From Neckera pumila (Eukaryota > Streptophyta > Bryopsida > Hypnales > Neckeraceae), in contig OZ018418.1 in the NCBI GenBank assembly GCA_963969595.1, positions 8,189,001-8,253,000 on the forward strand: a stretch of DNA of 64,000 nt. The letters are read 5' to 3'. Shown here piece by piece: positions 17,865 through 58,040 of the stretch. Below the pieces are notes generated by a model. That model saw only the letters and a program-made list of their open reading frames with translations. It was not told where the DNA came from and made no database searches. How positions within the stretch are numbered: the first letter of the stretch is position 1; each line of letters begins with the position of its first letter. Both the position numbers and the translations under genes were made by a program.

Positions 17865-18360
17865 CTAGAATTCTAAAAACTTCCGGTCCCACATATTATG
17901 AATACAAAGAGTAGAAGGACTCAGTGGTTCATTATTGTGTGTCTTGGTCTTTTGCACTCCTAGGGACCATTTATGTCTACGTAGCCGAGGGGGAGGCAAG
18001 GAAGTGACACCAACGAGACCTGTGCTTGAAGGAGAATCTGACTTCACCATAGTGATGGAGACTGGAATTTCAGTAACCTCGTAAAGCCTTCGTGGCGTGC
18101 CTTTCTCTAAAGGAGAAGGCGACATTTGAGATGCCACCATATCCTTGCATCTAAGAGGGGACGGGGAGCAGGACTTTGGCAGGCGAGGAGCTCCATTTGG
18201 AAGACTATCCACCACACCGTCTTCCATGGGCATTAGTGAAAAGTCCATTGTCGAATTGGCAGTAGTAGCGGAGCACAAAAAGGTCCCTGTACTGAGGATA
18301 GCATTTTGGCCACAGTCCAGGAACAAATTAGTTGACGCTTTGCAGGAAGACTAGCATCCT
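17865..18360 (-). pseudogene. C-terminal exon of the FCP1-like gene
   Basis: The minus-strand frame 18326-17865 has MEDGVVDSLPNGAPRLPK, then CSPSPLRCKDM and SQMSPSPLEKGTPRR, and ends DRKFLEF. It follows the FCP1-like domain on the same strand, separated by an intron-like stretch with two GTCGAC-type palindromes. A related tail lies at 59336-58923 (LEDGIVDSPPSQ, CSPSPLKRASLNQ), so this is a conserved low-complexity tail and not chance. Its serine/proline repeats recall substrates of CTD phosphatases, but I draw no functional conclusion. Confidence 0.55.
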
Positions 18361-18440
18361 TGATTGGAGTCGTCGAGGTACAAAAAGTGTGGAGACAAGT
18401 ATCCTTTAGAAAGAATTCAACCAAGCAGTGCCACAAACAC

Positions 18441-18600
18441 GCAAAGAAATTCATATGACAATAGTGACCAACACTTCAGGTCGACCAGACCTGAACAGAC
18501 AGAGCCAAAAGACAAACATGCAAAGAAATTCATATGACAATACTGACTAGCACTTCAGGTCGAGCCGAACTAAACAAACATAGTCATTTTGAACTTTGAA
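18441..18600. repeat. 79-bp direct duplication carrying GTCGAC-type palindromes
   Basis: GCAAAGAAATTCATATGACA starts at 18441 and again at 18520. Each copy ends in a palindrome: 18475-18496, arms TTCAGGTC and GACCTGAA, and about 18554-18575, more decayed. It lies between the FCP1-like domain and its tail exon, that is, in a likely intron. Confidence 0.85.
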
Positions 18601-18844
18601 ATGTAGTGATAAAGCTTTCTTGTTAAATTTATTAAACTGTGGCTATAAAATGAAAATTGACCACACTTAAAATCTATTTATATTAAGGATCGATGCGAGC
18701 TAAAGTGAAAAGTAAACAGAAGAGGCCCTAATGTAATTGTCACAGGTGTCGAGTAGACCTAATCAACATCATCACCTACAAATACTGTCCTATTTCAAAG
18801 TAGAGGACACTCTAGCTACATCCATGAGCCTATTATATTTGCGA

Positions 18845-19530
18845 CGACTCCGTTCGTCGCATAGCATTCGCCGACCCATCTTTCCTTTGCTATTCTCTCG
18901 AAATGACTTCAATCCTTGGTTCTGTGCGCTATGTACGCGGCGAAATCAGGGAAGAAGTACGTTGAGGAGGAAAGTGTCCTTCGGACCATTTCTCCTATAA
19001 CTCCAACTGTCTGGGAGAATGACATTCTCTGAATTGTTCATTATGTGCTTATTTGGGATATCATTGACTACAATTGTATCCTCTGGCATAAAATTTCTTC
19101 GTAAGCCACTGAACAAGTAACTAAGTTTCTTCAAGAAAAGTTCCTTATTTGTGTCGGTCTCTTTGAAAGTACTAACGTTCCCAAAACTATCCCTACACTT
19201 CAATATTGCACAAGAATCCTGTCCTAATACGAGGAAAGGCTTCTTTTGATCCTCAAACAGATATTGGCTGATTTCTTCGGCGGTGGATTTTTTCATGGAG
19301 GTCCACACCAAACGAATGCTATCCATCCTAACTCAAGAAGAAACTCAGCGCACCCAGGCTGGACATACACTGCCTTTGGTCCCATAATTGCAGGAATTGT
19401 GGCTGAGTGAGGTTGCTTAACGACAATCCTGGACAAACCCTTGGACTTGGCATCTTCACAGACACATAATATTCCATTCAGGTCCAGGACAACGTTGAGC
19501 CATTTCTCGGTCACTCTGGACGTCAATGGA
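18845..19530 (-). pseudogene. FCP1/NIF-like HAD phosphatase domain (frameshifted)
   Basis: The frame 19526-19293 starts with MTSRVTEKWLNVVLDLNG and has the HAD motif I as DLNGIL (19466-19491), then YVQPGCAEFLLEL. The frame 19326-18946 continues VWTSMKKSTAEEISQYLF, LVLGQDSCAILKC, PEDTIVVNDIPNKHIM and NVILPDSWSYRRNGPKDTF. The order DxNGxL, R/QPGC..FL, W-T/S-S, LGQDSC, VNDIP matches FCP1-homology (NIF) phosphatases. In these the first Asp is the nucleophile; here the second Asp of DxD is Asn and the late DD reads ND, as in some plant HAD-like relatives. A frameshift near 19.31 kb and another at about 18.95 kb, after which the sense runs on to about 18.85 kb, break the gene. It lies downstream of, and on the same strand as, the methyltransferase-like gene; whether they formed one transcript is unknown. 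Confidence 0.8.
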
Positions 19531-19769
19531 AGTTTGACCTCCTTCGACGTCCCTCCACGACCAATATGAGGACTCGATTCTTGCTATCAAATGGACAAAT
19601 GTGCAGCCAATTACTATCCTATATTGACACATTTCCAACATCAAGCAAAACCACCACAACATCCCGGACCCTTTAAGTTGAATAATGGCATTAAAAATTA
19701 CAAATTAAAAAACTAAGAACGTCGAGAACGCACACATGTAGTAGTAAACATGAATTACTTGCTGTTTAG

Positions 19770-20050
19770 AAGGAACAACTCGATCAACCAAAACATCAGG
19801 CACGACAATGGCGGCATCAGGAATTTGAACCTCCATGAGCACATCATCTGGAATGGATGTTTCATCAGCTGAAGCACTCTGTCTTCAGCCCAATTCAACG
19901 GATGCCAATTGGACTGCAAGATCACCATCCTTAAGGGGGCCCACATCCTCCGAAATCATAATGGAAGATGATGGGATAGGACATTTTGATGACGGTGAAC
20001 TGGGGACTAGAGGCAGATTTGGAGCATTGATCGGGCTTGCGACGAAAGAA
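19770..20050 (-). pseudogene. Acidic, low-complexity exon before the FCP1-like domain
   Basis: Minus-strand sense reads APNLPLVPSSPSSKCPIP, SIMISEDVGPLKDGDLAVQ, a stop, then SIPDDVLMEVQIPDAAIVV. The composition (Pro, Ser, Asp) suggests a disordered N-terminal part of the FCP1-like protein or a linker from the methyltransferase-like protein. No domain is recognisable. The sequence between 20050 and 20270 holds only a partial palindrome (CTTGAGTCGAGTT near 20.23 kb). Confidence 0.4.
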
Positions 20051-21188
20051 TGTACAAGGAAGAAGTTTGTAAGAACTGAGTATATTAAATCCTGAAGTAA
20101 TAAAAGTTCAATTACAAAAATAATATTCAAGATGCATAACTCCATGGCCGTGTCCAATAGCAAATCTGTTTCAAAAAATATCCAAACTGCTTTTGAAAGT
20201 CTACGTCTATATATAAACTATGATACAAATCAGCTTGAGTCGAGTTAATACTACACAATTGACATCAAGTGATTATTTGGGAAAACCTACGGGTGCATTT
20301 GAACCAGGCAACAATGTTTTCTGGTCATGTGCCCCAGTGGACTTGAGGGCCACTTCAGTGATGTTTGCTTCAATGGGAGCGGTGGATGATGTGGACGGGG
20401 CACCAACCTCATCTTTTGTTGCCGGCACAATGTTGGACTCTTTGGATGGCGGAGGAATCTTGGGGCAGACATCCGTCGGGAGAGCAGGCGCAGGGCAAGA
20501 AGGAAACAACTAGCTCCACGACAAGCCCCTGCAAGCTGGACCCGTTGCCTACATTTGTTGTAGACGGCAAACCCTGGAGCATTAGTTGAGGCTATTCTGG
20601 ACTTGGTTGTTTGTAAGCAAGAGGTGCTATACCTACTAGTTGATTCATTATCGCAGCATATTGATTGTTGCTTTTGGCGTTTGAACTCACTAGTACCGCA
20701 AACATATCATCCATTCTCGCGTTTGTTGTCGCATACATTTCCATACTTTTCACCCGATCCTTCAACCTCTCTTCCCTGAGTTGAGCAATGTCGTCGTCAC
20801 GGTCATCATCAGCGAAATTCCTCCTTTTCCTTTTCCCCTAACGGCCTTTAGGCGGCGGCGTGGATGAAGGCTGCGCCGATATGGGCTGCCCCAAGGAATC
20901 TGACGCCGACCCCCTAATGCTCTGAGACAGGTTCACGGGTGGCAAGTGCTCTGTGGGGACATCATCCGGACCGTAGTCTTCCTCCTCTGTATCTTTGTGT
21001 TCCTTCCCACTGTTGCATTCGGAAACTTGAGCTTTCGTGGATGGTGTATGGGGTTTGTTCCAAGCGAATTTGCGTCATCTCTTTGATGAAGACAAAGTTG
21101 TCGACCCAACAGGCTTCCTGTTGTGCTTCTCTTTGTCGACAAAATACCCTGTCGAAAGGAAGTCGTTCTTGTCGAGGGTCTTCGCCGT

Positions 21189-21399
21189 CTGCACAAGAGT
21201 TAGGGAGTTGAGACATCAGATGACGGAGGGAGACAATTCAGGTCGAAACAACTTGAAGCATTTGGCATGTGGATAGCAATTACGAACTTAGCATTCATTT
21301 CTAATTAGCTCGAGTCGACCTAAAGGTTGTTTGATGCTATTGAGCACAAAACCATATTCACATGCTCATTCAAGTCGAGTCAACCTAAACAACACTTAC
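21189..21399 (-). other. Intron with GTCGAC-type palindromes
   Basis: Donor GTAAGT directly follows ATM of the motif I exon (exon end 21400), and an acceptor CAG ends at 21189. The join is in phase and completes the methyltransferase strand after motif I, which supports the intron. Inside are palindromes at 21369-21390 and 21308-21324, plus a degenerate one near 21237. Confidence 0.75.
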
Positions 21400-22768
21400 C
21401 ATTGTGGCACAAGTAAGTTTTGATCCGCCAAATAACAATAATACATTGCCTACAGCGCAGCATCTCCTCAAGATACCCAAATAGAATTCCATTTGCAGCT
21501 CGGTATTGTGGATTCTGTATTCCACCTCATTGTAGGCCCTAGGCTTCGTGAACACTTCAGTGTCTGGGGCCCGATAAGCTGGTTTTGGCGTGATAATGTT
21601 GGAGTTCTTGGGGTTTTGCATAAACGAAAGATAAATTTTTTCGACCGCCTTGCTGTTGTTTGGTGAGTAGTCTCCCATATGCTCATGCTTTGCCGGATAA
21701 TAATCGGCAAAGTCTAGCTTGTAGTCCTTGAATACCTTGTTGTTCTTCAAAAAGTGCAAGGTCTGCGTTTGTTCAACCAAGTCCGAGCAGATGATGAGCT
21801 AGGTGTTGACTTCTTCTATCTTGGGCTTCTTCTTCTCCTAGAATGACTTCATCACCGCGTGAAAGTATGGTTTTGCAAGCGTGGCATTTGCCTTCTTTGT
21901 CACCATTGGCATGTACCAAAAGTCCATTACCCCCAATTTAATGCTGTCTAGTGTGCCCTCTCTCTATGCATCCCTTGGCCAGTTTGTGTGCCTCTCATTC
22001 ACGATGTTGTATGGTTGATAGTGCACGGTGGACTGCAATGGAATAAAATTTGACCTTCATTCCAGGAACACCCTGAAGAATTCTGTAGCATAGGGGGACA
22101 TTTCTTCAGCAGACTTGTTCTTCGCCCTGGTGTTCTTGGCCTCCCCCAAGTAGTCAACGCCTAGCTGCTCAAGAAAGATGTTCATTGTCGCACTAGTAAT
22201 GTTGCAACTACGTTTGAACTCTCTCCACTTGTCCAGGTTGATTTTGTTTAGTGCATTCAACAACCCCAAGTCTTCGCCAAGAACATTAAGTTCTTTCTTC
22301 ACGAGGTACTTTCTCTTCCGTCTTTCCACCCACTCCTTGCATGTGTAGCAGCTTTCAAGAACGGATGAGACAACTTTGACTGTGACCTTGGGATAGTCAT
22401 AATTCGCCAGCTTGGGATCAATGTGGAGAATGTGCTTGGCCAGTATTGTGAGATCATTATGAGAATGTGCTTGGCTAGTATGAGAGGTTCCCCAGAAATT
22501 TGAAGAACTCATGCATCAGATTTCCGTTCTCTGGCTTCCAGCTTAGTTTCTTGTTGAACGGCATCAACGTGTCTGAGTCTAGGAGCTCCCCGTGTGCAGA
22601 ATTGGATATCACCTCACTCCATAGTTTGTAGATGTCATCAGAGGCGGTTATAATCTTAAGCTTGTTGGTGATTTTCAGCTTCTCCTCCGTGCCCTTTCCT
22701 TTTGTTGCTTTCTGGGACTTCACGACATCCAGCATTGCAAAACGGTTGCTCATAGCCGTCACGAACTC

Positions 22769-22908
22769 CTGCGTAATAGACAATGAGTGTTTAATAGGTG
22801 CCACACAAGAGGGTTCAGGTCAAGTGGACCTAAACCAACGAAGCTTGGCTGTTGAATGACGTTGCTTAATCAAGCACAGATTAGGTCAAGTCGACCTGAT
22901 ATAATTAC
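22769..22908 (-). other. Intron with two GTCGAC-type palindromes
   Basis: Donor AAG|GTAATT (exon end 22909) and acceptor GCAG (22769-22770) bound a 140-base intron. It joins NKKKFK to EFVTAMSNRF in phase. Two palindromes lie inside (22814-22834 and 22881-22899). The homologous gene of island 3 has an intron at the same protein position, with two palindromes of a different sequence. Confidence 0.8.
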
Positions 22909-24371
22909 CTTGAATTTCTTCTTGTTCGCTTTGTTCTCGGCGTTTCTTCTAGCGTTGGAGATTGTCTTCACTGGTGCGAGGTCTTTGGAGTGTCTTGGTC
23001 TACCCATGAGCTCCAGACTGTCCTTGTGCCCAAGATGTTAGTAGACCATGACGGCTTCATTGCCTGGAAGTGGTTTACTCTATTGTAGTACACTGAGACT
23101 GTCTTCAGTTTTTCAGTATCCGTTGACCAGACTACGTAGTTGTCCCATTGGCGGAAGTGCTTCAGGATGTCTTTGTCAATTCCCTTGTCTACCATCATAT
23201 GGTCGGCGGTTACACTATACTGTCCATTGATGAGGTAGAAGTTCCCAATCTTGATTGACTCCCAGTCTTCCGGCTTGGGCTTCTCCTCTAGTCCGACAAG
23301 CATGATGCAAAGTTTCTGCTTTATAGACTTGTCTGGCATGTGGCAGAAAAAATGCATCAAATCTCTAGCCACACGGGTCTTGTAACTCCGCATGTTCAAG
23401 TTTGCCGATGCCTTCACGAGCTGTTCAATTGGTATGCTTTTCTTCTCGTCAATTTTGAAGACATGGGCGTTGTGGCATAATGCCCAGTAGTTCTTGTAGG
23501 CTTTTGCAGAGAGCTTATAATCATACTTATTTCTTAGGTCATAGGCCTGTGAGACATTAGTCACAATTGACGCAAAGCTCCCTTCTTCAACAGCAGGTTT
23601 GCTAGCAGCCTCATCTTGTACTCTCTGCGAAGAGGACGTTGCCAAGTTGCTCTTCTTGCCTCCTATTGGAGGGGTCTGGGCCTTCTTCCCTTTCCTTGTC
23701 CCTCAACTGTTTTGAGTTCCGGGCATGGTTTGCGATCCTTGCCCTTCTCCCTGACTGGGGCTATCTAGGGATACTGATCAAGGAGTCATATTTTTCTTTG
23801 CTTTTTCAATCTTGGAGGTTAGAACCGCAAAATCTATGAAAATAATCCTTAGTCTTGTGCACAATGTTTTCCCGGAAATTGGCTTTCCAGCACAAGTCTT
23901 GAAGAAATTGTCGTCAACTTTTTTCTAGAGCTCCGGTATTTCGGTTTTGTAGTCAGTGAGCACGTGTGACTCCAAGATTGAAGTGATGTTGAAGACTACT
24001 TGTGAGGAATCCAAAATGATTGTGAAATAATACTAGTCCTCCTCTGCAATTCCGACTTGTGCTGTAACACAATGAATTTTGATCATTTGGCCGACGTTGT
24101 GGACAATGTCCTTAATCTTCTTGTTGTAGGAGATAGCATAATATGGCTTGCTGTCTTTGTACTTTGCAAAGAAGCAAATCATGTTCCTCAGCTCAAGCAT
24201 TTTTAAACTCCAGTGGGCCATCTTCTCGCGGTTTTGGAAAGTCCAGTACTCCCTGTCGGTGTCATAGTCATCTCCGTTGTCTTCATCTATTAGCCTCTCC
24301 ACTCTCTTGTAGAACGCCTCTAACTTCTAAACCTGCTCCTCCATTCTTACCCTGCAAGATCAAGTGTATTC

Positions 24372-25124
24372 TTTAGGTCAAGTCGACTTGAATCGTAATC
24401 ATTTGCTATTTGTTTTAGTTGCCTGGATGTAGTATGCGGTGCTACAGCGGTTTCTTTGGAACACTATACTTTTGGGGTCTGCCAGAATAGTTCACCTAGT
24501 CTCTTAGCTTGTGATGTTTTTAGCTGCTGATCAAGTTAATTTCTTGTAGTGTTTATTCTGTATCTTAAGGATATAGCCTTTTTAGGTCAAATTGACCTAA
24601 TCTGGTTTTAGGATTACATATCTTGTATTGCTGGTGTATGATTTTGCTCTTTGATTTTTGTATGTCGACTCTTCTCATCTGGATAATCAGGTCGAATCTA
24701 CCTAATTTTTGGATCTTTGAGCACGATACAATGTTATGCTATGTCAATTTGTCTATTCAAGTCAATTTGACCTAATTTGTTAATCTGTTTCTCTTTTAGT
24801 TTATTTATCTTCTGTACTACATGGGGCTTTCTTTTTGTTGGTGTTCTCTTCAATGTTTCTAATAATTCACTGATCAGATTGAGTCGATTTGAATTGTATT
24901 GTTCGGGTACAGTATTTTTGAGAGGGAGCTTGGGTTCTTGTTTAGATCGACTCAACCTGAATTGGCTAACTAACATTCACTAGATGATTTCCTACTTCCT
25001 TGGCTTTGGGCTACTTGATGTAGGAGAAGTTCCACTTCCTTGGGTTCACAAATTTAGGTCGAGTCGACCTAAACGGGCACCTCATCCTGTGTTGGGTCAA
25101 ATTATGTGGGCGCTGTCGACCTAA
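24372..25124. repeat. Cluster of GTCGAC-type palindromes, left side of island 1
   Basis: Palindromes near the form TTYAGGTCGAGTCGACCTRA lie at 24372-24393, 24581-24600, 24689-24706, 24755-24776, 24874-24894, 24941-24961 and 25053-25073, with half-sites near 25.11, 25.16 and 25.20 kb. Spacing is 50-210 bases. They lie upstream of the acceptor at 24352, so probably in the first intron(s) or leader of the minus-strand gene. Confidence 0.9.
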
Positions 25125-32494: not shown

Positions 32495-32863
32495 GCAAGA
32501 CTGATGCTCAAGGATTCATTGTCAAGGCTCTGGGTGTTTTGAATACGTGATTGACAACGTCATAGAGACTTTGTTAGAATTTTCTTGCATTGTGTTGTCA
32601 CTTGGTTGTTTTGAGTCATAGGATTTGTTGAATGACAGGAATTCTTTTGTGCTGTTGTTTCGTTTCGTTTCAATTTGTAACTGTGAGTGTAAGATCCCAC
32701 GTCTGGTAGTTGAGCTTGTTATTTTCCTTGTGAACTGCGTGAAGATGGTGCAGTTGTTCCCAAATATGTTGCCATATAAAGCGGAACAGTGTTATTTTAG
32801 AATGAACGGAGTACAATCCCAGAAAATTCGGGAGCACTGAAGCCAACTAAATAGAATGAGGTT

Positions 32864-33658
32864 TCAATTTGGGTCGACCTAAACAGGATACCCAGACACA
32901 TGCTGTATAATAACTTAAGCGTCTCGTGTCGTTCAGTTCCAAATTCAAGTCGATACAACCTAAACCCTGCAGAAGTGATGATTTACATGTCATACAATTG
33001 TAGCATATTCTACTTTCAGGTCAAGTCAACCTAATTATGAGTCCCACAAAAAGATACGTGCGCAATATACAATACTATTGGAAAGCTGATTGAGTTCGTT
33101 AAGTTCAAAACTATTCAGGTCGAGTTGACCTGAACTGAGGAGAAGTATATCAAAGGATCTACACCCGATGAATAATATTAGTTTTAGTACCATCAATGTT
33201 GAATAACATTTTATTAACTAATCCTACAATTACTTTAATAAATGATAAAAATTCCATCGGGTTGTTATAGTTATGTTTGTATGTTGTCATTGTTTCAGGT
33301 TGAGTCGATCTAAATTGTCCGTCTGTTATTTTGAAATGTAACTTACGTAATGCACTTTATTGGATGGTTTAAGGATTTCCATAAATCTGAACTCATCCTG
33401 GATTTCACCTACACTTGGAATACTTATGTAAGCGCCACCTGAAATTAGGTGACAGTAACCTTGATGTTATTATTCAGGTCGAGTCGACCTGAATATGTTT
33501 TTGGTTCTGGTAATTCTGAAGCATAACAAAGTGACTCTGATTATGTTAATTATTTTCCTTCTTGTTGATGACCACAATGTTTTTATTGCAAGCATCTCCT
33601 ATAGCTAGTGTCATGCTTTGTTTCACTTATTCAATATTTAGGCTGAGTCGATCTGAAA
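32864..33658. repeat. Cluster of GTCGAC-type palindromes, right side of island 1
   Basis: Palindromes lie at 32943-32965, 33015-33034, 33113-33134, 33293-33314, 33472-33494 (perfect AGGTCGAGTCGACCT core) and 33637-33658, plus a half-site near 32.87 kb. They stand directly upstream of the plus-strand transposase-like gene, mirroring the cluster at 24.4-25.1 kb upstream of the minus-strand gene. Confidence 0.9.
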
Positions 33659-33760: not shown

Positions 33761-36385
33761 ATGGAAGCTATGGCCATGCTGCTGGAGATCATGGACTCCT
33801 CAGACAATGAGGTCCAAGATATTGAGGGACATATTGTGCCACAGTGTGAAGGAATTCCGCGTTGCTTTTGGAATACGATGGTTGTCACTAAGTACTGGGA
33901 GAGTAGAGTATTTGTTGATGAAGGTACTTGCCACAGTGTGAACTATGACTTGGTGCTCGGTGCCACCGGTCCTCTGAGAGATACTAATGTCGTTGTCCAC
34001 ATTTCCAAGTCACATTCCAAGGAGCACTTGCCAAAGGAGAGGGTGACTTCGTTGATGGCCTAGCCTATTCATCTTGTCCATTGCCGTGGTGCAAGCCTTC
34101 GGGACCATGAAGCCCGTGATAAGTTCGGGCATTTCGCGAACGTATGTATTGGAATTCAACGTTCAAATATAGAGCCTTCATGAAGATTGAGGTGCACAAA
34201 TTGGTTCACCGTGATGCATATGGGAGGAAGATGGTGATGGTTGAAGAGATTCCTGTGTGCATGCAAGCGTGGATGCATATTTCCGAGGTCTCAAAAATCA
34301 CATTCTTTCGCTATCAAATACTCATAAAGGACAAAAGAGAAGCGACGGACCATGGCTTTAGGGGATTGCTGAAGCCAAGGATACACACTCAATAAGCCAC
34401 TTCTATATTGAAGTGCCTCCTTGACAATCATATGCCGCATCGTACTCGAACTATGAAGTCATGAGAGAAAGTAGTGTCCATGTGTCTTCCCCCTACCTTT
34501 CAATGGAAGGGGAAGATGAAAGAAATCAATGATGTCAATGCAACCTTTGGATTGCCTGCAGTTTCAATTTTGAATTTAAGCAAGATCAGATCCTCCATAT
34601 TCTTAGAGTATGAGGTCAAGAAGCCTAGGGACAATTTCACTCGGTGCGCTATTTGCGACAAATTCAAAACACTCAGGAAAGGTGCTCTTTCTGGTTCAAA
34701 CTCTGCTCTCATGTGGGCGCGAAAGTTGGAGAAACATCTTGCTATTGCGTGTGCTCACAGGGAGTTGTACTAAGCAAACTGTTATCGGTCGCACACTAAT
34801 CCACACGAGTGCCCACAATCATGCACGACAAGATGGATCATTCTAAAACCGCTTGTCCAGTCTTTTCCCACAAGAGTAAAGACACGGATGGCCTCGTCAA
34901 GTTGCCTGTGTCTGTCACGGAAATGATTGCGCATGGTCATGCTAGTGTGCCCTATGTGCATTATGGTTTGGATCTGTTTCCTCACAATTCAAACTATACC
35001 ATTGGCTCTATGGCAAAGTTGTTGCAAGATCTGGAGTTTGCACCAAAGTCTTCTTCTCGGCAATTGTTTGCGAGATTGCCTTCAACAAATTTGTTTAAGG
35101 CGGTTATGAAGGGTGCGGAGATGTGCAAAGCATCGCTTCCCCCACCGCCGATCAACTTAGTTTTGGCGACACTATTGCCGCCCATACTCAATGTGCAGAT
35201 GGACAATGCCACTGGGGACAATAAGAATAGATATGTTTTCTGTTTTTGGTTGCTTCTTGTTGCAAATAAGATCCTCCATGAAGTATTCATGAACTTCATG
35301 ATTGTAGGTCACACGCACGACAACATTGATGCGTTGTTTGGAAGATGGAGCATGCAATTGAAGAAAGAGAACTTCTCTACAGTTCTTGCGTTGATGAAGT
35401 CATTCATGGATGTGGAGTCCATTCCCACTATCCCTCACCTTGTAGAAGAGGTGCCTGATTTCAAGGATTTCATTGCAAGTTCATTTGTAGATGGTGATGA
35501 CATCCTCCTTGGACATACAAAACCACAACAATTGAAGTTCTACTTAGATTCAACGGGGTGTCCGGTCATGAAGTACAAACTACTGTGTACTAATGTGGAC
35601 TGGTTAGGGGAAAATGGTACAAGCATTAAGTTGTGGAAAGAAGATGCTGAAGGGCAAAGTTTTTGGCCGCATGGGGTACTGTTGGTAGTTCCTTTGAAGG
35701 CAATGAGAGGTCTCGATGACATTGTGTGTCTGGATTTATGAAGTATTGGGAGGACTTGTGCAATGCAGATAACACCGAGGAATGCAGGAGGCGCTACGAG
35801 CATGTGGTGCACTATTGGCATGATGTGAAGGTAGCGCTGCAAGAACCACTCCCTGCATCTACTATTTTGAAGGATGGTTTCTGGCTGAGTACTGAAGTTC
35901 AAGCAACTCAAGCAAATCAATTTGATGAAGACGGTGAAGACCATGAAGAATTCGGAGAAGATGATGCCTACGTCGGACCTTTACGGGGTCGCCCGCAACC
36001 GTCTTTTAGGGTGATTCGGGATGTTTTCGATGGCTACTTCCTTGCAAAACGGCCAGCAGATGGTGCTAGTCAACCAGTATGGATTGCAAGGGCATTGTCT
36101 GATCCGCATCGTAACCCTCATAAGCCAAATTGTATAAGCATGCAGTACTTCCGTCCAACAGTAAGAGACGAGGATGTTCAGAACTTCTACACTGGATGGG
36201 ACGACGAAGGAGGTCTGCATTGGAAGGTTGATGAAACCGAACCACCACCTTGGCAGCATACAGACGCACTGATGACAGCATGGAAGTCTAGAATCCAGAA
36301 AGATACTATAGAGTGCTTGATCAAGATTCCTGCTGCTCAAATTGAAGTCATCAAGCAAAGTTTGGCTTCAATTCCTTCGTCTTGA
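33761..36385 (+). pseudogene. DUF7869-type transposase-like gene (frameshifted)
   Basis: The start is taken at ATG 33761 (MEAMAMLLEIMDSSDNEVQ). The sense changes frame several times: 33761-34063, about 34150-34395, 34480-34773, 34809-35741 and 35726-36385. It would give a protein near 870 residues. A putative zinc-binding part reads CAICDKFKTLRKG (34645 on) with later histidines (LEKHLAIACAHRELY). The core shows IMHDKMDHSKTACP, MDNATGDNKNRYVF (35200 on) and IVGHTHDNIDALFGRWS (35307-35353), the marks of the DUF7869 domain as I remember it, a presumed RNase H-like transposase core. The tail is acidic and ends FRPTVRDEDVQNFYTGW. About five frameshifts and an in-frame TAG at 34.06 kb make it dead. 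Confidence 0.8.
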
Positions 36386-36967
36386 ATGCGGCGATAGATC
36401 GTTGATTTTATAAGATTCTGACTACCTATCAGCAATATGTTATTGAGTACTATTTGGTATTTAGATGTTTACAATAATTATGCTTTCACATGATTGCGGG
36501 ATAATGATAATATTATGTTTTATCCTAGATGTGAGGTAGTAGTTTTAGATTTATGAATGTTTCTATGTTGATTTCCATGTGTGCGACTAGAGTTATGGAT
36601 TTGTAATGGTGAATATATATTTTGGAAATGTATTTGAGATCTTTGCATTGCAAATGCAATATGTATACCATATTAATATACTTTGTATTTACATTATTAT
36701 TTTACGTGGTTGTAAAGTGAATGTCATTTATGACATGAAACAATGCAATGTTTGCTGAAGGACATGTATTGTTTGCAAAGACTCCCATTTTAATGGAAAT
36801 TGCTAGTTTAAACTAATTAAATGAGTGATTATAGAGCTAAATTGTAGCCCATTTTCATTCACTCATTGTGCCTTCAAAAGCCTAATTCTATTTTGGGAGT
36901 GCCACATCCTTCCATTTTAACGAATATAATGTTCACCTTGGATTCGTCCAGCAAGCTACGTCTTATT
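36386..36967. other. Island junction; sequence shared, inverted, with 16.9-17.0 kb
   Basis: No gene. Two phrases, at 36.78-36.80 and 36.91-36.93 kb, match the minus strand of 16.88-16.95 kb in order, with about 110 extra bases between them here. This marks the return of island 2 sequence after island 1. Confidence 0.6.
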
Positions 36968-37460: not shown

Positions 37461-37715
37461 GAACTTGGCTCCATTAGAATGCTTAGTTCATCACTCTTGA
37501 GCAAGGTTACAAATCATTCAAGTTCTAACTTTATCTAATATTTTTATATGATGGAAACTTGTTGGGCCTATTTGAGAGATGTCATATTGCCTTTGTAAAT
37601 CAAATAGGGATATGAGCATGTTGAATTGTTAAATGGTGTGACTATATTTAAGACTGTTTAGGAAATTGAATGCATGTATAACTTACTTGGAATATTGATT
37701 GTAAACTTTCAAGAA

Positions 37716-42105: not shown

Positions 42106-42559
42106 GTAGTGATGCAATTTGTATTCTAGATAAAGTTGAGTATATGTACCTTGTGGATACTTCAAATCAGTTATTATATAAAAAATTTAAATAAAGGGTT
42201 TGTACACTTGTGGATTACATCTATAGTATATCACCTTTGGAGTTGGTATTTCCAACTTTGCTTTGCCCATAAGCAAAAATTTTAGAGGGTTTCGTTCATT
42301 GGAATTGAAATTCATTGATTATATATAGCAGTTAGTTACTTTCATATTGGATAGAATCACTTTATATCCTTATAAATGACTTGAATGCAAGAGAAGTATA
42401 TATATATGAATTCCATCTTATTTTTTCATGAGCAATAGAATTAGAATTCTAAATCAAAAATGAACTCAAAATAAAGTGGTCCATTGCAATTCAAAATGAA
42501 GTGGTTTATGATTGTTGGTACAAAGAATCCTTATCCTAAATTTTTTAATAAGAGCCATT

Positions 42560-43430
42560 TAATTTTTTTGGCTTTTTGAAACGCTTTTCAAGCCATGAAA
42601 AAGGCTTTTTGGAATCAAATAAAGGCTCTTTGGAACCCCATAAAGGCTCCTTGATTCCAAAGAGCCTTACTTTAGTGCCAAAGACTTTGGATTTTAATGA
42701 AGATCCTTGAAAGCCAAAAGAAGGCTCCTTGGTTCCAAGAAGCCATTTTTTAGTGCCAACTTGAAGAGACTCTCTTTTAAACTTTAATGCCAACTTCAAG
42801 GGTTTAGTGCCAAAGACTTTTGGACTTCAATGCCAACTTCAAGGGACTGTCCCTTAAATTTTGGAGGGGCCTCATATTAAAGACTCTAACCAAACCATTC
42901 CATTTTTATTTTTTTTAATATATTTTGAAATATTTATATAATATTTTCTATAAACATTTTCTACTTTTGATATTTAAATGAAATAATTCACGTATTTAAA
43001 TAACAAGGGGATTGCATTTTAAATTGAGGGGGGGCATATGTTAGTGGGGATTGTATGACGCTTCCTTAGAGGTGCAAGAAGGCTCTTGGGAATCAAATGA
43101 AAGCTCCTTGGAAGCTAGAAAAAGCCTCCTCTATTTCGAGGAGCCCTGTTTTGGTGCCAAGGACTTCTGATTTCAGTGAAGGTCCTTGAAAGTCCAAAAA
43201 TGCTCCTCAGTTCCAAGGAGCCATTTTATAGTGCCAATGTCAACAGACTCCCTTTATTTTTTGTTAGGTGTCATTTGAGAGACTCTAACCAAATCATTCT
43301 ATTTGAAATTTAAAAAAAAATATATATTAACAATATACATTAATATCTATGAATATTTCCTATTCTTGATATTTATAAGAAATAGTTTTATATGTTTATA
43401 TGACATGAGGATTGTACATTGGAATTTCAA
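42560..43430. repeat. Direct repeat of about 500 bp with CTCC palindromes, right end of island 2
   Basis: Block 42.57-43.04 kb is repeated, diverged, at 43.08-43.43 kb. Shared landmarks in order are AATCAAATRAARGCTC, GTGCCAARGACTT, GAARRTCCTTGAAAG, AAGACTCTAACCAAAYCATTC and TTGATATTTAWAWGAAATA. CTCC-type palindromes lie near 42648-42668, 42727-42748, 43123-43146 and 43201-43222. The block follows the gene end and may be the subterminal region of the island. Confidence 0.75.
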
Positions 43431-45115: not shown

Positions 45116-47595
45116 AACAAGAAAATTAAAAACTAGAAAATTTAGAAAAATTAAAAAAAAGAATGACAAGTCTACGGGGGTCAAACTTCCTTTGACCGCC
45201 CCTAGCCCTTCCGCTTGGAAGGTGTACTATATTTGTCTCTGCTCTCTTCAATTGTCAATTGATCCATGATCAAAACCTCTTGATTAAATCAACATCTTTT
45301 CAGATAGAGCGACATAACAGTAGTCCCTAATCCATCTTTAGGTCTACGGTACTCTTTTATTTAATGAGGGGCTTCTTTAAAGGCACAACAAGGGTTTTTT
45401 TCTAGTTTCGGAGTGATCTCCGGAACCAGTTGTTGGTCCACCCAAGATATAGGACTTTTTGACCGTGTGCCCATAGACAAGTGAACAAGAGAGCCATGGG
45501 TTCTCTATGATTTGCAATCATACCGCAGATGGCTGCCATAGAGCACCCACACCTCCACATGAAACTGTTGAGGTTCCCTGGAAGCGGACTGCTACGTCCA
45601 ATTTTGCACTTGGAAGCCCTCCACCAAGACCTCCAAATACTCACTTCCAAGGATATCTTTGTTTGTCCCGAACTTGCGAATACCGAGTTTGGTATTGTCT
45701 TTGTCACCTAAGTCTTCTGTCTTGGCCTCTTCCTCATCCTCATTGACTTTTTCATCATGAGTGCCTTCTTTTGAAGGCGTGGACTCAAAGTTCAAGTCCG
45801 GGGTTCCAAGAAATTGCAGATGCACGTAGTTAGCAAGGTAATGCAAGTTGTCGTAAAGAAAATCATTGATGTCCGTTCTCTCACCATGATATGTGACTGC
45901 TGTGCGATAATTGTCAATTTCTTGTCTCCCTTGAATTTCTTAGCGGAAGAGGCCATACAACTACCAAAAATACCTTAGGCGTTAGTTCTTCAGTTGTTGG
46001 CTCAAATAGCAGCTTATACAAGTTCTCTTAGACATTATTCTCAAATCAAAGATAAGAGACCAACAATACTCAGACAACTCTCAACAAAGAAGCATCGCAA
46101 TGAATGTGTTACAATATAATTAAATCGATTCAAAGAGTTTATGCTTGATTCAAGGATAAACAAGGAGATCATCACTGAGTCCATAATGTATAGATTATTC
46201 CCATTTCACTACAGGATACTCAACCATGTTTATATTTTACTCAAGGACAAAAAGGGCCATGAAAGGGAGCTCTACCTTTGCCGCTATCATGAATTTGGAC
46301 CAGTGTAGATGCCCAAAACGTTTTCCTCGGATGGCAAAACTTTGGAGTATGTCTATGTAGAACTCCATCCTCAGTTTGCTCTTGTGCACCCTCAACTTGG
46401 CGTCCAGGTGTTTTGCAAAATTGCGATAATAGAAATTGTCCGATGTTTTGTATTGCTTCTGCAGGGAATCGATACCCTTGGGCACACCGTCATCTCCCTT
46501 CTTCAAGAGAAAGAGGAGGGTAAATGGAGCCACAACATGCCGATTTTTCAGGCCGTCAAGACGCTTGGCCTTGCATAGAACGTACGGCATCTGTTTCAAA
46601 TCAAAGAGCTTCATATTCTCCTTTGCAAATGAAATGGCCGTCTTTTTGTTGTAATTATTTCCAAGAACCCACATCTACACATATAGAGCGCTCATGCTAG
46701 GCCTCAAGTGATTATGTAGGAAGTTGAGAAGAGTTGGAACCGATGGAGGATCACCAGATCCAGGAGCTGGCCTCAAAACTTGCCGGTAGCCTATAACTGC
46801 AACGGGAAGAGTTTGAATGTGGTACGTCCAATTGTGACTTGTGCAAAATTCCAGGGAATAGAATTTGTGTCTCTAGATGTAGACCTCTCCATCTTGTTTT
46901 TCCACATGTTTTTTCATCTTGACAAACCGCTGGACCATGGGATAGACTATTGGAAATGGTTTTTTCTTATAGTCTGCAACTCTCTTCTTCTTCCCCACAT
47001 TTGTGAGACGCTTCACAAAGAAGTTATTTTGCGGCGCACTAAGGAGGAAATCCTACGATGCAAACATGAAGAGGTGTTTGCGCTTCCAAGCCCTCCAGTC
47101 GATGACGTCTTCTTCTTTGTCCTTGCATTTCAATGTCGAATTGACGACCATTAGTTCATCTAGGATAACTTTCTTTCACTTCTTGCGCTCCACCTAGTCT
47201 GCCCCGCTTGAACAATCCACCATTAAGTGAGAAACTTTGTGGACAATGAGTTTTTGATAGGGCAAAGTGCGCTTGGATGTCAGGCCAAGTAGATGAATGA
47301 CGTATTCTTTCATGTCCTAATCCATGAAATGCCCCATGTGCCTAAAAAACTCCTGCTAAAGTGTGTAATTCTTTGGCTAGAATGTTTTGGACACCTTCTG
47401 TTGCTTCATCGTGGCAGGATCAAGGAATAAATCCGCCATGTGATTGCTGATGAAGTCATGCCACATTTGGTAGATGCCTTTGGCCAAGGTGGAAATTTGG
47501 ATTTCATTCTTGATGTTAGAGGAGTTCTTTACTTGATTGCTGTCCTTGTCCAGATTGATGCTCTTGAAGCGGATCAAGACAGCATTGACAAATTT

Positions 47596-47820
47596 TGCAT
47601 CAATGGAGAATTGTATACATCACCGTCAGACAGTATTTATTGTAATGGACTAGGTGGATATCATGTTAATCTTTGAGCCAAGGATAATGAAATGAGGTTT
47701 CTCTTGTGATGTTTTTATATGAAAAATCAATGGCGAAGCAATAAGAGCAAGTACATTGAGCAGCTGATGTGTAGAAAAGTTATCCTCAAGCCAAAGATAA
47801 TGCTACAGTCATTGTGTTAC
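47596..47820 (-). other. Intron of the island 3 gene with TTATC-type palindromes
   Basis: The donor AAG|GTAACA has its GT at 47819-47820. The protein resumes KFVNAVLIRF at 47595, but the expected acceptor AG reads CA and may be mutated. The position equals intron 22769-22908 of island 1. Two palindromes lie inside, at 47668-47688 and 47779-47801, of the TATCTTTGANTCAAAGATA family instead of the GTCGAC family. Confidence 0.65.
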
Positions 47821-48603
47821 CTTGTAGGCATCAAGTGCAAATTCGACTTTGTTTTTGCGGACTGCCGCTTTGCTTTCAACTATCGTCAGCTTCCCAAATG
47901 ACATCTAGATGTCTCTGCAAGCAAAGATCTGGTTCCTCTATGTCAATTGGCTGTGCGTAATGTGGTTCGTTGCATTGTACCACCTCAATATCTTAATCAA
48001 TTTGGCTGGATCTTTGCTCCAAATGATTCTTGCATTTGACATCTGCAACTCCACCTTCCTTTCCTGGACTTTGCAACCTGCCTCCTTCTTCTTGCAAGAT
48101 TTTGACAGCAATCATGCTATGCTAGCTGTTAATGATAAAAAAATTCTGGACTTAATGGCATTCCAGTTTGTAGGATACGCTTTCAAGAGTTTTCTCTTTG
48201 TCCATTGGTTTCAAGCATATTGTCTGTGGATCCCTCATATTGGATAGGGCTATCATCTCTTTTTGCTTTAGCTTTTGGATGACGTATTTTGGATAAGGCA
48301 TGAAGCATTGATTTATCTGCATAAGGAATGCCTTTTTTTTAAACTCTTAAAGAGGAAGCTGTCACCAAGGTTTTCTTTGAAGCTTTTCTAATAAGCCGCC
48401 ATGACTTCAAACTCTTGAATTGGTTTGAAGTCTCCCTTTGGCAGAGGTGCCACATTAGTGAAGGAAGATTCAAAACTTTCCGCTGTTGTGGGTTGCTGTT
48501 CAGCGGCTTGTTTTCAACACTTGCCACTTGTTTCACCTGCTTTGGATTTAGGCGTCTTCCATTTTTGGGGTTATGAATGCGTGCTCTCCCTACCACTGCC
48601 TTT

Positions 48604-48678
48604 GTTGCCACCTTGGCTGGTCCCTCTGCTGCCACCTTGGCTGGTCCCTCTGCTGCCACCTTGATTGCCTCCGTGGTT
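48604..48678. repeat. 24-bp coding tandem repeat, about 3 copies
   Basis: GCCACCTTGGCTGGTCCCTC starts at 48607 and 48631, and a partial copy starts at 48655, exactly 24 bases apart. On the minus strand it encodes the octapeptide KVAAEGPA in the basic region of the island 3 protein. Confidence 0.95.
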
Positions 48679-49378
48679 CCCACTTCAACCGCCACACCAA
48701 CTCCTGGATCTTCCATGGCCATGAGATGCCAAGAGGGGATCATTTGTTTTTGCTTGTGTCTTTGTGGCCCTTCCACACCAAATATGGGCGGCTTGTCGCA
48801 AATGCTTATCTAGTCCTCAAAAAATTAAGTTGATAGTTTTGGGCAGTCTGGTGTTCTACTTCTGCCATGGACTAAATGTTTGTGCAATTCATCTGCTAGC
48901 TCTTCAATATTGGAGGCATTGAGTTCAGCCACAAGAGCATCCATGTCAAATTGTGAGCATTCATCATCCTTGTGCATGATGATTGAGTGATTGTATGGTA
49001 TTTCTTCTCCGTTGTCGTTGAGCGCGAGCCGTGTTAGGATAGTGTACTATATGTGATGGTGTTCAATGAGGGAGACCTTCTTGTTGAGGTTATAGTTCAA
49101 AAACAACCCAGTTACTTCATGCAATGTTGGAGGTAGATGTAGTCCTTGGAGTGGTTGACTCCAAATGTCCATGATTTGATGATGGACTTGAACTACCATA
49201 ACTTGCCATAGATTGAAGAATCGCTCGTTTTTCATAACGATTGAAGAATGGCTTGTTTTCATTTGTTAAAGGGCTCTAGGAATGGAAGGGTGACCAAGTA
49301 ATTATACTCTGGTTCCTTGTCCATTATATTATCTACCTATATGTGGACATAGATTTTGTTAGTTCTTATACATTTAAT

Positions 49379-50196
49379 TTATCTTTGATTCAAGGATAAT
49401 GGATAAGTCAACTATGTTTGAATTTGTTTAAGCTTCATGTCTTGCTAGAAGTGTTACTAACAGGCTTAGGCATAAAGTGTTGACGCGGTTGTCTTTGCAA
49501 TATCTTAGGCTTGAGGATAACAAGATTCCCGTTCACAATTTTGCGATGCTTTCTATGAGATATGTTGTCTGCCTGAAAACTATTATGTTATGTTTCTTAT
49601 TTTATCTTTGGCTCGCGGATAACCAAGATAGGTACTAATGGCTGGGTACATCGTTTTGAATTGAGCCCTTCCAAATTTATCTTTGGCCTGAAGATAAATA
49701 TTTAGGCTTTGTCAAATTGACTATTTTGCGCTCGGCTTCTGTATTTATCTTCAAGTCAAAGATGGTTTTTTTGGACAAATGACTCTTCTCTTCAATTTTT
49801 GTTGTCTATGTTGATAATTTTTTTGCTTCTCTTTGTGATTTAGTGGAATTAGTTTTGTTTTTTGTTTTTATAGTTCTGGTATGCAATTAGTTATTTTCAA
49901 CCTGAATATAAATATAGAAGCTAGGAATTTAAGAATGTTGAGTTTAGCATCTTTTATTATCCTTGGATTAAAGATAGTATTTTTGGACTAATATGTCTTG
50001 TTCTGGTACTTGAATGCCTACTTTACTAATTTTTTGCTAGTCTGTGCCTTTTAGAAATATTAATTTTTGTTTTAGTTTCCTTATTTTGATTTCTAGACAA
50101 TTATCTTTGACTCAAAGATAACTATAGAGGCTTCTTTAAAGGATATTAAAAATGTCAAACTCCACTTCCGTATTTATCTTTGAGTTGATGATAAAT
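49379..50196. repeat. Cluster of TTATC-type palindromes, left side of island 3
   Basis: Imperfect palindromes of the form TATCTTTGANTCAAAGATA lie at 49379-49400, about 49610-49622, 49675-49700, 49743-49764, 49966-49988, 50100-50123 (best copy) and 50171-50196. Half-sites occur near 46.03, 46.15 and 49.50 kb. They lie upstream of the minus-strand gene, as the GTCGAC cluster does in island 1. Confidence 0.88.
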
Positions 50197-51200: not shown

Positions 51201-51299
51201 TGAATTGGCTACGTCCCACCTGCATTTGCCTAGGTGGTAATGGATGGAGGCCATTCTGACAAGTGTACAATAAAAATAAAAATAAATCCTACTTCCCTT

Positions 51300-55309: not shown

Positions 55310-55947
55310 TTAACTCCTAAATGTCCAAGGGTTGTTTTGAGCCTCTTTGGATTTGATCTAAATTGAACAAGAAGTCAACATTTTTATAAGTTCAATTAAT
55401 TTTTTGAATTGTAACCATACAAATTCAAGCTAGAAATATTAAAAGTTGTATACAAAAAGAAAATACAACAATATCATTTAAGAATTGGAAGATTACAATA
55501 CATAAGGAGGTGAAAACTACAAAAATCTTTGAGCTCTCTTTTTGCACATCAAATCTCAAAAATTGAAGATAAGAAAAAATATGACACTGAAGGGCCTAAC
55601 AAATATAACCTCAATCAATTTATGAATTATCTAAATCTATTGTACAATTTCTTTAAATGAATTTCTAGTGCGATTTTTTTCTCCAAGATCTAGTATATTT
55701 GAGGCTCATTTCCAAGAGCCTTCAATACTACAAAATGTCAAGATTGCCATGGGTACCTTTGCATAAAATCTTGAATAGAAAAATCATAATCATTCATTTT
55801 AGAAATCGGATTTTTGATGCAAAAATTAGATTTCAAAAAAAATCATTCAAAAATATAAACTACTAAAAATAGCAATTTGGTAAGGATTTATTAACTTCAA
55901 AATTTCTTCAGCACCATATTTAGGTGTGTTGGACATTTAGGGGTTAA
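55310..55947. mobile_element. piggyBac-like miniature element, TTAA-flanked (630 bp)
   Basis: The element 55314-55943 is flanked by TTAA at 55310-55313 and 55944-55947. Its ends are inverted: CTCCTAAATGTCCAA on the left and, on the opposite strand, CCCCTAAATGTCCAA on the right. The first bases CYCCTAAA and the TTAA flank agree with the element at 29971-30875, but the interiors do not look alike. No transposase frame. Confidence 0.88.
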
Positions 55948-56380
55948 ATAGGTTTCCAACAAGGAAGACAAAAAAATTTGTGTTGTGTACTTTTCTTCTT
56001 TAAAAAAAATTCTCAATTTACTTTTGCATCCCTAAATTAAATTCTATAATTTTTCTTTTTGTCAATTAATTGCTATATCTATACTTTATACGTATGCACT
56101 TTTTGAATGCATAATTTTTTTCCACTTCTGTTTTAGTTAAAATTTTGAATGATAGAACTCAATTACACTAGCCGTAATCATCAATAAACAATCTATGCAA
56201 TATAGATGAACCTTGCACCTTGCATATTGCCAAAAATGTCAATATAATTTTAAAAAACGAGTTAGCCAAAATACAAAGGAATGAGCCCAAAGCAACCCTC
56301 AACTAAATCATAGACAAAATTTTTGTTTAAATATAATTTGGACTTTTAAATACCATGTCAAATACCTTGAAGTCTAAACC
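55948..56380. other. No recognisable gene
   Basis: AT-rich sequence between the miniature element and the promoter-like stretch; nothing to report. Confidence 0.5.
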
Positions 56381-57264
56381 CTAAACCCTAAAATCCTAAG
56401 CCCCTAAATCCCAAACCCTGAATCCCTCCACTTTATAAATAGATTAAATAAAAATACTCCATTCTCATTGGCCGTTGCACATTAGCTGCATGATTTGGGT
56501 AATTTATGCTACCACTTGTTGGAAACACAGACTTTAGCCCAATCTTAAAAAAGAAAACAATGGATGTAAAAGATCGAAGGCAAGGGGCCACAACTAACTT
56601 TGGAATTGGACAAGTGCCAAGTCAGAGAGTAATCCACATTCCCAATAACTAAAGCCAACATTCTAGAAGAAAATGTAGTTGCCTAAATAGTTGTAAAGTG
56701 AAATCCCCCCTATTTATTCCCCCTATTTATTTCTCCTATTTATATAAAGTCAAATTCTCCTTATCTACAAAAGGTCAACCAAATGGAAGATGGCTTTGTA
56801 AATTTAGAAAAGTACATTGTCAGTCCTGTCTCTTACCTTTTCATGGAAGTTTTCAATGTCAATGCACCCTGAATCAAGGAGGTACTTCCCCCCTAAGCTT
56901 GGAAAGTTTTCAACAATTTAAATTCCATAACTTCCACCCAGAAATTTCCCGCCATCCAGCGTTGTCTCTCTCCCCGCAAGCCCCACAATTCCTCAATCCA
57001 ACTCGTCTTCATTTACCTCTTTCATTGCCCTTGCAAACATTGCTTCAACGTGGACTTTGAATTTATGCTTTGCATTTTTTGTTAGTGTTTGCGGAACTAA
57101 TATCATCTAGGGGCCTTAGTTTCGCACTCATTCTCATAAGCTTATTGTTTTGCTTGTTGTTCATTTTGCTCTCTTTCATATTGAGTACTTGCGAGTGCAA
57201 ATGCTCTGGCTCCGCAAGGTTGCGTTTGATGTCTTTGGTTTTGATCATATCAAGGATATTATAG
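56381..57264 (+). promoter_or_regulatory. Promoter/leader-like region on the plus strand, right side of island 3
   Basis: AAACCCTA boxes at 56381-56420, a TATA-like CTTTATAAATAG near 56.44 kb and another, CTATTTATATAAAG, near 56.74 kb. A pyrimidine-rich leader (56.94-57.06 kb, CTCTCTCCCCGCAAGCCCC) precedes an ATG at 57066. The open frames here have no recognisable domain. The position mirrors the right side of island 1, where the DUF7869 gene begins, but the gene itself is missing here. Confidence 0.4.
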
Positions 57265-57384
57265 TTATCTTCAAAGATAAATGTTTATGTATTAATGAAA
57301 TGACAATTCTCCAGAGAAGTACTTGTAGCATCTTTGACTAAGCAATCTATAGAAATGCTAAATTATCTTGGAGTCGAGGATAAC
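57264..57384. repeat. Two TTATC-type palindromes, right side of island 3
   Basis: GTTATCTTCAAAGATAA at 57264-57280 and AATTATCTTGGAGTCGAGGATAA near 57362-57384. They begin the right-hand palindrome region, which passes into the tandem array at 57517. Confidence 0.8.
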
Positions 57385-57516
57385 CTATATAAGAAAACTC
57401 CAACATACATTGCTTGTGGGCGAAAGGTTACACCTCATTTTAAATCTTTACAGCTCTCTAGATAATGATTTAGTCTTCACATATGCTCAAATCAAGGATA
57501 TATTTTCTTCATGTAA

Positions 57517-58040
57517 TTTATCTTCAAGTCTAAGATAAAGTAGCTAGGCTGTAGGAAATCATTCCATTGGTTTATCTTTGAATCTAAGATAAAATAGTTA
57601 GACATTAGGAAATCATTCTGTTGATTTATCTTTGAATCTAAGATAATATATTCTAAATATAGGAAATTATTCCAATGGTTTATTTTTGAGTCTAAGATAA
57701 AATAATCAAACTATAGGAAATCTTTCTACTGGTTTATCTTTGAATCTAAGATAAAATAGTTAGACATTAGGAAATCATTCTGTTGATTTATCTTTGAATC
57801 TAAGATAATATACTCTGAATATAGGAAATTATTCCAATGGTTTATTTTTGAGTCTAAGATAAAATAATTAGACTATAGGAAATCTTTCTACTGGTTTATC
57901 TTTGAATCTAAGATAAAATAGTCAGACTTTAAGAATGGTTCCCACTATTTTTTTGACTCTGAGATAATATAATCATACTATAAGAATGGTTCTCACTGAT
58001 TCTTTAACTCTAAGATAAAACAATCATATTGTAAGTTATT
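57517..58040. repeat. 54-bp palindrome-bearing tandem repeat with 162-bp trimer order
   Basis: Units start with TTTATCTT(T)GAATCTAAG at 57517, 57571, 57625, 57679, 57733 and so on, 54 bases apart. Units three apart (57571, 57733, 57895) are nearly identical, so the array has a 162-base trimer structure. Each unit contains the island 3 palindrome (TTATCTTTGAATCTAAGATA). The last units are diverged (GGTTCCCACT type) and end near 58040. Confidence 0.95.

Follow-up and report, generated by a model that had tools for sequence, protein, structure and literature searches.

We analyzed a 64,000 nt stretch of Neckera pumila contig OZ018418.1 (positions 8,189,001–8,253,000; the whole stretch is hereafter the window, numbered from its first nucleotide). 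Its first gene island, island 1, is best explained as a dead copy of a family of DNA transposons of ~20 kb with terminal inverted repeats (TIRs) and a 4-bp target-site duplication (TSD), in which a DUF7869 gene diverges from a gene joining a ParB-like domain to a methyltransferase (MTase)-like domain, whose product may recognize the element's own DNA. We assign this explanation as a whole a probability of about 0.6. The window is plant-like in its introns, retroelements and gene structure, and the host genome comprises 339.5 Mb in 18 contigs. An earlier reading based on the letters of the window (the sequence-only reading) had proposed three such islands.

Searches of the host genome returned at least 150 scored matches to DUF7869 (794 candidates) and 152 matches to the ParB frame (231 candidates). 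Among the 150 listed of each, at least 23 divergent ParB/DUF7869 pairs were found within 15 kb, spaced 9.5–11.4 kb, whereas random placement (200 draws) gave 0.42 on average and never more than 3; the window's own DUF7869 gene is absent from the 150 listed matches, and 23 is a lower bound. Other pairs within 15 kb, among the matches listed, comprised two on the same strand and one convergent. The divergence first noticed in island 1 is thus a fixed feature of the family, and the gene order is the same in the host genome and in a metagenome-assembled genome (MAG) contig described below. The 91 DUF7869 rows with the highest scores contribute to none of the 23 pairs, and no divergent ParB match within 15 kb is listed for any of them; pairing with ParB is thus a property of a second DUF7869 class (class 2). 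The most likely transposase of the element is the DUF7869 protein, given its constant place there and given that the 91 best-scoring loci, with no listed divergent ParB gene, seem to spread alone.

The ends of the element were mapped from 16 stretches around DUF7869 genes, the ten of class 2 being aligned downstream of the gene. Through most of columns 1–880 of this alignment, conservation was 0.83–0.97; it was ≤0.5 after AACRAATATGGCCTT. The opposite end was seen in two copies and then at the predicted place in two out of two further copies. The TIR, AAGGCCATATTCGTTAAAATGAGA, is perfect at 4/4 left ends and 3/4 right ends, with one mismatch at the right end of the C5 copy, and the length of the four TIR-bounded copies ranges from about 19.6 to 20.0 kb. 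Three of them show TSDs (AGAT, TTTG and ATTG); as a point against this interpretation, the fourth (C3:35.60M) has no 4-bp TSD, only 2 bp being common to its flanks. With the TIR in all four copies and the TSD in three, these results support the earlier proposal of a repeated mobile-element family.

The ParB-like box INGQYS picked out by the sequence-only reading lies in a 244-aa open frame (22,971–23,702, minus strand) that has seven relatives, at 51, 52, 47, 51, 55, 63 and 50% identity. The box of these relatives is mostly NGQHSV, NGQHSI or NGQHNV (P0005 breaks off there). A read-through of the exon after the ParB exon (X at stops) found one relative, the stop-free P0008, at 61% identity over the whole query, and the MTase-like exon of island 1 (22,434–21,400, minus strand) is 64% identical to the same protein. 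Two further stop-free genes, L001 and L002, were found by one scan of genome contigs, on contigs labelled as a Synechococcales MAG (GTDB MAG AVDCRST_MAG81). Because both contain GT-AG introns and are members of the window gene's family, these contigs and that of L003 are likely to be eukaryotic contamination in the cyanobacterial-labelled reference MAG, which also holds a stop-free DUF7869 frame on a separate contig. The spliced L001 and L002 frames are stop-free over three exons and encode 1,345 and 1,326 aa, lengths measured from the first codon of the open frame rather than from the true start, in the order N-terminal part, ParB-like domain, MTase-like domain and low-complexity tail. The two halves had been taken as fused from decayed copies, with the proviso that a lack of any match to either half, or halves always found as separate genes, would speak against this; L001 and L002 both carry them in one stop-free three-exon gene. 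In L002, this gene is followed by a NIF-type phosphatase frame (PF03031, E 2.4e-14) and then by a small SPSP frame.

The claim that motif IV precedes motif I also holds in a stop-free protein, as D165 of VDFRNTP in L002 stands ahead of AGSK at 328. Of the predicted likeness to ParB/sulfiredoxin (Srx) and amino-methyltransferase families, the part that stood is the predicted fold of both halves, and the part that did not is a match at any Pfam cut-off. A model of the ParB half of L002 is predicted to adopt the ParB/Srx fold, and a predicted model of low to middling confidence shows the fold of beta-class amino-methyltransferases (PF01555), motif IV preceding motif I. In a structure comparison of the latter, CcrM was the top match, tied with others (Z differences under 1 being ties), and D165 lies at about the position aligned with motif IV of CcrM.

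Several observations weigh against these assignments. The predicted local distance difference test score (pLDDT) and the predicted template modelling score (pTM) were 57.5 and 0.50 for the MTase model and 64.0 and 0.61 for the ParB model, and Foldseek with the ParB model gave no ParB row at E ≤0.001, TM-scores by query length being ≤0.34. No Pfam model, that of ParB included, reaches its cut-off on the ParB-MTase gene; PF01555 scored 15.1 and 18.9 bits, below its cut-off of 26.7, whereas PF03031 scored 52.7 and 53.8 bits on the NIF/FCP1-like frames, above its cut-off of 21.8. Neither Pfam nor PHROGs returned a ParB or MTase family when the pieces of both halves were scanned as single open reading frames, nothing was found by a PDB profile search with the MTase alignment, and tblastn of phage records with the MTase core gave no significant match (two hits, at E 3 and 4). 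The ParB box reads NGQHSVxA, NGQHSIxA or NGQHNVKA, where the canonical nucleotide box of the ParB/sulfiredoxin superfamily is GERRxRA. In the relatives seen, the motif-IV position reads (I/V)DFRx(T/V)P, DFRxLP or DVRK rather than (D/N/S)PP(Y/F), and the phosphatase-like gene has DLNG or DLNS (L002, L051, L053 and the window) in place of the canonical phosphatase motif DxDx(T/V). Catalysis by the MTase-like domain is doubtful, because DFRx(T/V)P or the like stands where DPPY would be expected. That catalytic positions deviate from the canonical in the MTase-like as well as the phosphatase-like protein would also fit an explanation to which we give appreciable weight, if less than even odds: that the likenesses are of fold only, and that the transpososome has retained a dead enzyme for DNA binding or as a scaffold. 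However, L001 and L002 keep the acid after motif I (CICEND and CICEAD) and the glycine-containing AGSK loop, as expected for S-adenosylmethionine binding.

The reading of a self-recognizing transposon draws further on palindromes that recur throughout the element, of which the window contains families a, b and c (Table 1). At six edits, family a occurs 30 times, compared with a shuffled-arm mean of 9.8 and a maximum of 24; 21 of the 30 have ≤5 edits, all in island 1, and five of the 14 sites at 18.4–25.1 kb lie in the two ParB-MTase introns (placed by eye). Family b at six edits (80 sites) shows no excess over the shuffled-arm control (mean 63, maximum 94), and only the 23 sites at ≤5 edits, all within two clusters, were used. 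Family c occurs 14 times, mostly at six edits, compared with a mean of 0.37 and a maximum of 2. Among palindromes with a single-base centre in the window (sixteen neighbours scanned), 16 were GA-n-TC, with 1.5 expected from a first-order Markov model.

In L001 and L002, 14 of the 15 palindromes of a stricter scan are GA-centred, and 14/15 GANTC palindromes are of the type TTCAGCTCGAnTCGAGCTGAA, in which both arms differ in concert from those of island 1; the ParB-MTase exons and the NIF frame contain none of the 15. Across the 16 DUF7869 stretches, 57 of 73 palindromes are GANTC-centred, and 10 of 11 class-2 loci have upstream sites at almost the same distances from DUF7869, between 0.13 and 0.96 kb (nine TATCTTCGAnTCGAAGATA, and a variant at L042). 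The C5 copy has 28 sites at ≤5 mismatches (60 shuffled-arm sets: mean 1.9, maximum 20). These sites occupy introns, intergenic DNA and the regions upstream of the two divergent genes, and seven follow one another at 74–75 bp steps. Just past the exon, the ends of P0001, P0003, P0004 and P0008 would agree with translated palindromes (by eye, from protein only). Spacing is in places regular, at about 54, 65–70, 74–75 or 77 bp. The clear palindrome families have the GANTC centre in common, and the core TCGAnTCGA is common to island 1, L001/L002 and the class-2 elements.

The following points count against a consistent pattern of this kind. Family c is founded on few good copies, and its GANTC centre is the weakest; seven of the 16 GA-n-TC palindromes lie in one tandem array, TG-n-CA palindromes are also raised (7 versus 1.5 expected), and a stricter scan of the window gave a GA centre in 7 of 20 palindromes. 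The class-2 locus L049 has no palindrome. One L002 palindrome (6,601) falls within the SPSP frame at 6,145–6,798, the end of which was placed by hand at 6,600 for the comparison of palindromes with frames. Eight of the 28 C5 sites lie in stop-free frames; by eye, six of these fall in introns or ahead of the conserved protein, and two (L051 1,962 and 2,172) remain in the C-terminal frame.

Apart from these loci, no palindromes were found at L044–L046, and L047 and L050 have one unrelated palindrome each. Class 1 of DUF7869 (L005–L034 and L044–L047) is the larger, with frames of up to 1,076 aa, and its scanned flanks are without the family palindromes. Decayed palindromes of families a and b often differ by TCGA to TCAA or TTGA (by eye, uncounted), a pattern such as CpG methylation and deamination may be expected to leave.

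From the anatomy, TIRs, TSDs, pairing and palindromes established here, together with the predicted ParB and MTase folds, we infer palindrome binding, dimer action, methylation and anti-silencing. The divergent gene would encode one protein of about 1,330 aa with a ParB/sulfiredoxin-fold domain, a beta-class amino-methyltransferase-fold domain (order IV...I) and a low-complexity tail, followed by two putative helper genes, one NIF/FCP1-type phosphatase-like and one small and SPSP-rich. A dimer of this protein would act on the family palindromes, like ParB and Noc on palindromic sites, and the MTase-like domain would read or modify the central GANTC. The protein would thereby recognize the element, control both divergent promoters and perhaps hold off host silencing. 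Recognition of the palindromes is proposed because ParB-type proteins act as dimers at palindromic sites, because the sites lie upstream of both the ParB-MTase gene and DUF7869, and because the arms change in concert between families. The element-wide palindromes may be the physical substrate for self-recognition, and their family-specific form, together with the ParB-MTase gene, suggests a selfish element that recognizes its own DNA.

The nearly constant place of the sites upstream of DUF7869 at all but one of the class-2 loci would also suit binding by the DUF7869 transposase, and transposases are established to bind subterminal repeats in other DNA transposon superfamilies; the ParB-MTase protein would then act elsewhere, for example as a host-directed anti-silencing factor. 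We consider this somewhat unlikely, as sites also occur in introns and between genes of the ParB-MTase half (L001, L002 and L051), kilobases from the ends, the interval from DUF7869 to the right end contained none in ten copies scanned at 7/9 arm pairs (two hits lie beyond the end), and four loci of the other DUF7869 class (L044–L047) have no family sites. An active N6-adenine or N4-cytosine methyltransferase in the MTase-like domain, marking self at GANTC or at the TCGAnTCGA core, appears unlikely. The site of CcrM is GANTC, and the rank of CcrM among the structural matches, the place of D165 near its motif IV and the centre common to the clear palindrome families all point this way; however, PP(Y/F) is missing from the relatives seen, and the structural ranking is a tie. 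Chance capture of host genes near DUF7869, or an artefact of decayed frames, would agree with window copies full of stops and frame breaks, but is hardly credible in view of the exact ends and TSDs, the 23 or more divergent pairs, the stop-free relatives and the gene order shared with the MAG contig.

Beyond a transposon that recognizes itself, it is conceivable, though we would not expect it, that the element runs a nuclear ParB-parS-like system, in which the protein loads at GANTC-centred palindromes, spreads or bridges, and marks the DNA by adenine methylation or occupancy, so that its own promoters stay open and the transposase can distinguish intact siblings from copies that are decayed or foreign. 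A TIR transposon with captured accessory genes is of a known kind, and working marking of this type would be categorically new. Carriage of a ParB/MTase fusion by a plant DNA transposon would mean that a bacterial-style DNA-marking or clamp module has entered eukaryotic transposon biology, and the family-specific palindromes would provide a direct handle on the self-recognition and silencing escape of a selfish element. The placement of DUF7869 in an element with defined ends, TSD and gene order helps to classify its many unnamed copies, of which there are at least 150 in this genome.

Table 1. Features of the window (positions from its first nucleotide)
Feature	Position	Strand	Basis
Left TIR of island 1 (AACATCATATTTGTTAAAATGGGAG)	16881..16905	+	5/24 mismatches to TIR of full-size relatives
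SPSP-rich small gene, remnant	17865..18350	-	Outer limits are those of the open frame
Family-a palindromes (TTCAGGTCGAnTCGACCTGAA), n=14	18475..25073	.	≤5 edits
NIF/FCP1-type phosphatase-like gene, remnant (DLNG near start)	18796..19517	-	tblastn E 2e-45 to L002 gene
Probable C-terminal exon region of ParB-MTase gene, low-complexity tail	20300..21237	-	By eye only
ParB-MTase-like gene of island 1, decayed	21400..24323	-	tblastn, L002 exons E 6e-50 and 4e-63; P0008 E 9e-136
ParB exon; MTase exon (island 1)	24,323-22,983; about 22,768-21,400	-	
ParB/Srx-like open frame, 244 aa	22971..23702	-	Seven relatives, best E 1.7e-69; alignment; predicted fold of L002
Family-a palindromes, n=7, just upstream of DUF7869	32863..33657	.	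≤5 edits
DUF7869 transposase-like gene, decayed	33869..36382	+	PF25273; 64% identity to L003 over 34,815-35,726
Right TIR of island 1	36909..36933	-	Inverted copy; 3/25 mismatches to left TIR
Island 2 region, seven of 14 family-c palindromes (GGCTCCTTGGAnTCCAAGGAGCC)	37120..43222	.	Likeness of gene to ParB-MTase confined to motifs
Island 3, decayed ParB-MTase gene of second family (b)	45550..49375	-	tblastn, L051 exons E 9e-38, 1e-85, 5e-108, 6e-27
Family-b palindromes (TTATCTTTGAnTCAAAGATAA), n=12, in and upstream of island 3	46035..50194	.	≤5 edits
Family-b palindromes, n=11, most in 54-bp tandem array	57363..58018	.	≤5 edits
TIR of another element, opening rightwards	58137..58160	+	3/24 mismatches

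Island 1 is bounded by TIR-like ends at 16,881 and 36,933, and its flanks (CTCC and CACC) agree in three of four bases. The sequence-only reading had begun its stretch at 17,865, inside island 1 (about 16,881 to 36,933), and its end at 58,040 did not prove to be the end of island 3. The DUF7869 gene that it saw in island 1 is present, with a PF25273 match (E 5.5e-38) on the frame at 34,800–35,738 (plus strand) and a tblastn match. The phosphatase-like and SPSP remnants adjoin the ParB-MTase gene in the same order as in L002 (tblastn); the SPSP remnant at 18,078–18,287 matches L053 (tblastn, 41% identity, E 6e-8) and resembles the gene that adjoins the left end in full-size relatives. The frame after an AG acceptor in the C-terminal exon region begins TAKTLDKNDF and resembles L001 exon 3 (by eye). 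The spacer between the divergent genes contains a satellite-like tandem array with a 175-bp unit in about 5.6 copies (28,977–29,970).

Island 3 was rightly taken for a decayed gene of the same kind: it matches the L051 gene over all exons (tblastn), with 59 and 66% identity over two MTase pieces, and pieces of islands 1 and 3 show weak mutual similarity (E 8e-6 and 5e-4). A TIR at 58,137 and an SPSP gene remnant to its right (59,202–59,357, minus strand) suggest that a further element begins there. In contrast, the placing of island 2 (37.7–42.1 kb, plus strand) as a third member was not upheld. The WDGNHP and GDVPDG boxes are present, but no Pfam hit to ParB or MTase, no protein match and no tblastn match to 18 element proteins were obtained; hhalign comparison with the ParB and MTase alignments gave probabilities of 0.2 and 0.1 percent, WDGNHP being aligned with INGQH at the former. 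The joined island-2 protein had no relative among 5,117 candidates, and its ParB open reading frame gave weak unrelated hits only (E 0.23 and above) against PDB sequences. Beyond the boxes seen by eye, the one other link of island 2 to the family would be its neighbouring palindromes. A plain-TIR scan around the islands gave the ends of island 1 and no convincing ends for islands 2 and 3.

The 12.3 Mb contig of the window, about 4% of the genome, holds 73 of the 150 listed ParB-like matches, many with stops; as a guess, this contig may be a sex chromosome or one of low recombination, on which dead copies accumulate. A 4.5 kb repeat is present twice in the window in direct orientation (5,800–10,400 and 59,400–63,900), its copies lying 53.5 kb apart at 70–99% identity block by block; this is probably a single repeat family that inserted twice. 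A decayed gypsy-like polyprotein occupies 13,230–15,991 (minus strand), with reverse transcriptase, RNase H and integrase recognized by eye. The tRNA and Rfam scans of the window found nothing, and the viral contigs searched contained no relative of DUF7869 or of the ParB frame.

Full-text searches of the open-access literature turned up no description of a plant transposon with a ParB/methyltransferase gene, and returned no paper for DUF7869. Among known systems, CcrM and other beta-class amino-methyltransferases share with the transposon protein the predicted fold, the motif order and GANTC, the site of CcrM, which here stands at the palindrome centre, whereas DPPY is replaced in the transposon protein. 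Chromosomal ParB and Noc with their parS-type palindromes differ in that the box here is NGQHSVxA, followed by an MTase-like domain, in a eukaryotic transposon. Bacillus cereus has a known ParB-methylase with nicking activity, and bacterial and phage ParB-methylase fusions such as Bce_0392 of that species resemble the present protein in joining a ParB/Srx-like domain to an amino-methyltransferase domain (PMC5512222). The present gene differs from these fusions in being a three-exon gene of a TIR transposon, with motif IV reading DFRx(T/V)P or the like, and with an MTase core lacking a significant match in phage records. Sola2 DNA transposons have short TIRs, a 4-bp, mostly AT-rich TSD, a transposase of ~900 aa and captured accessory genes, according to the portion of their description consulted (PMC3627910). 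The present element resembles this description in its short TIRs, its 4-bp TSD (AGAT, TTTG and ATTG), which would fit Sola2 among others, a putative transposase of about that length and its accessory genes; the size of ~20 kb and these particular accessory genes are features of the moss-genome element that are absent from that portion (PMC3627910). Finally, retrotransposons that acquired cytosine methyltransferases are likewise eukaryotic transposons with a DNA-methyltransferase gene, and as far as the excerpt of that work extends (PMC5890265), the enzymes there are C5 methyltransferases in retroelements, whereas a ParB-amino-MTase fusion is carried here by a DNA transposon.

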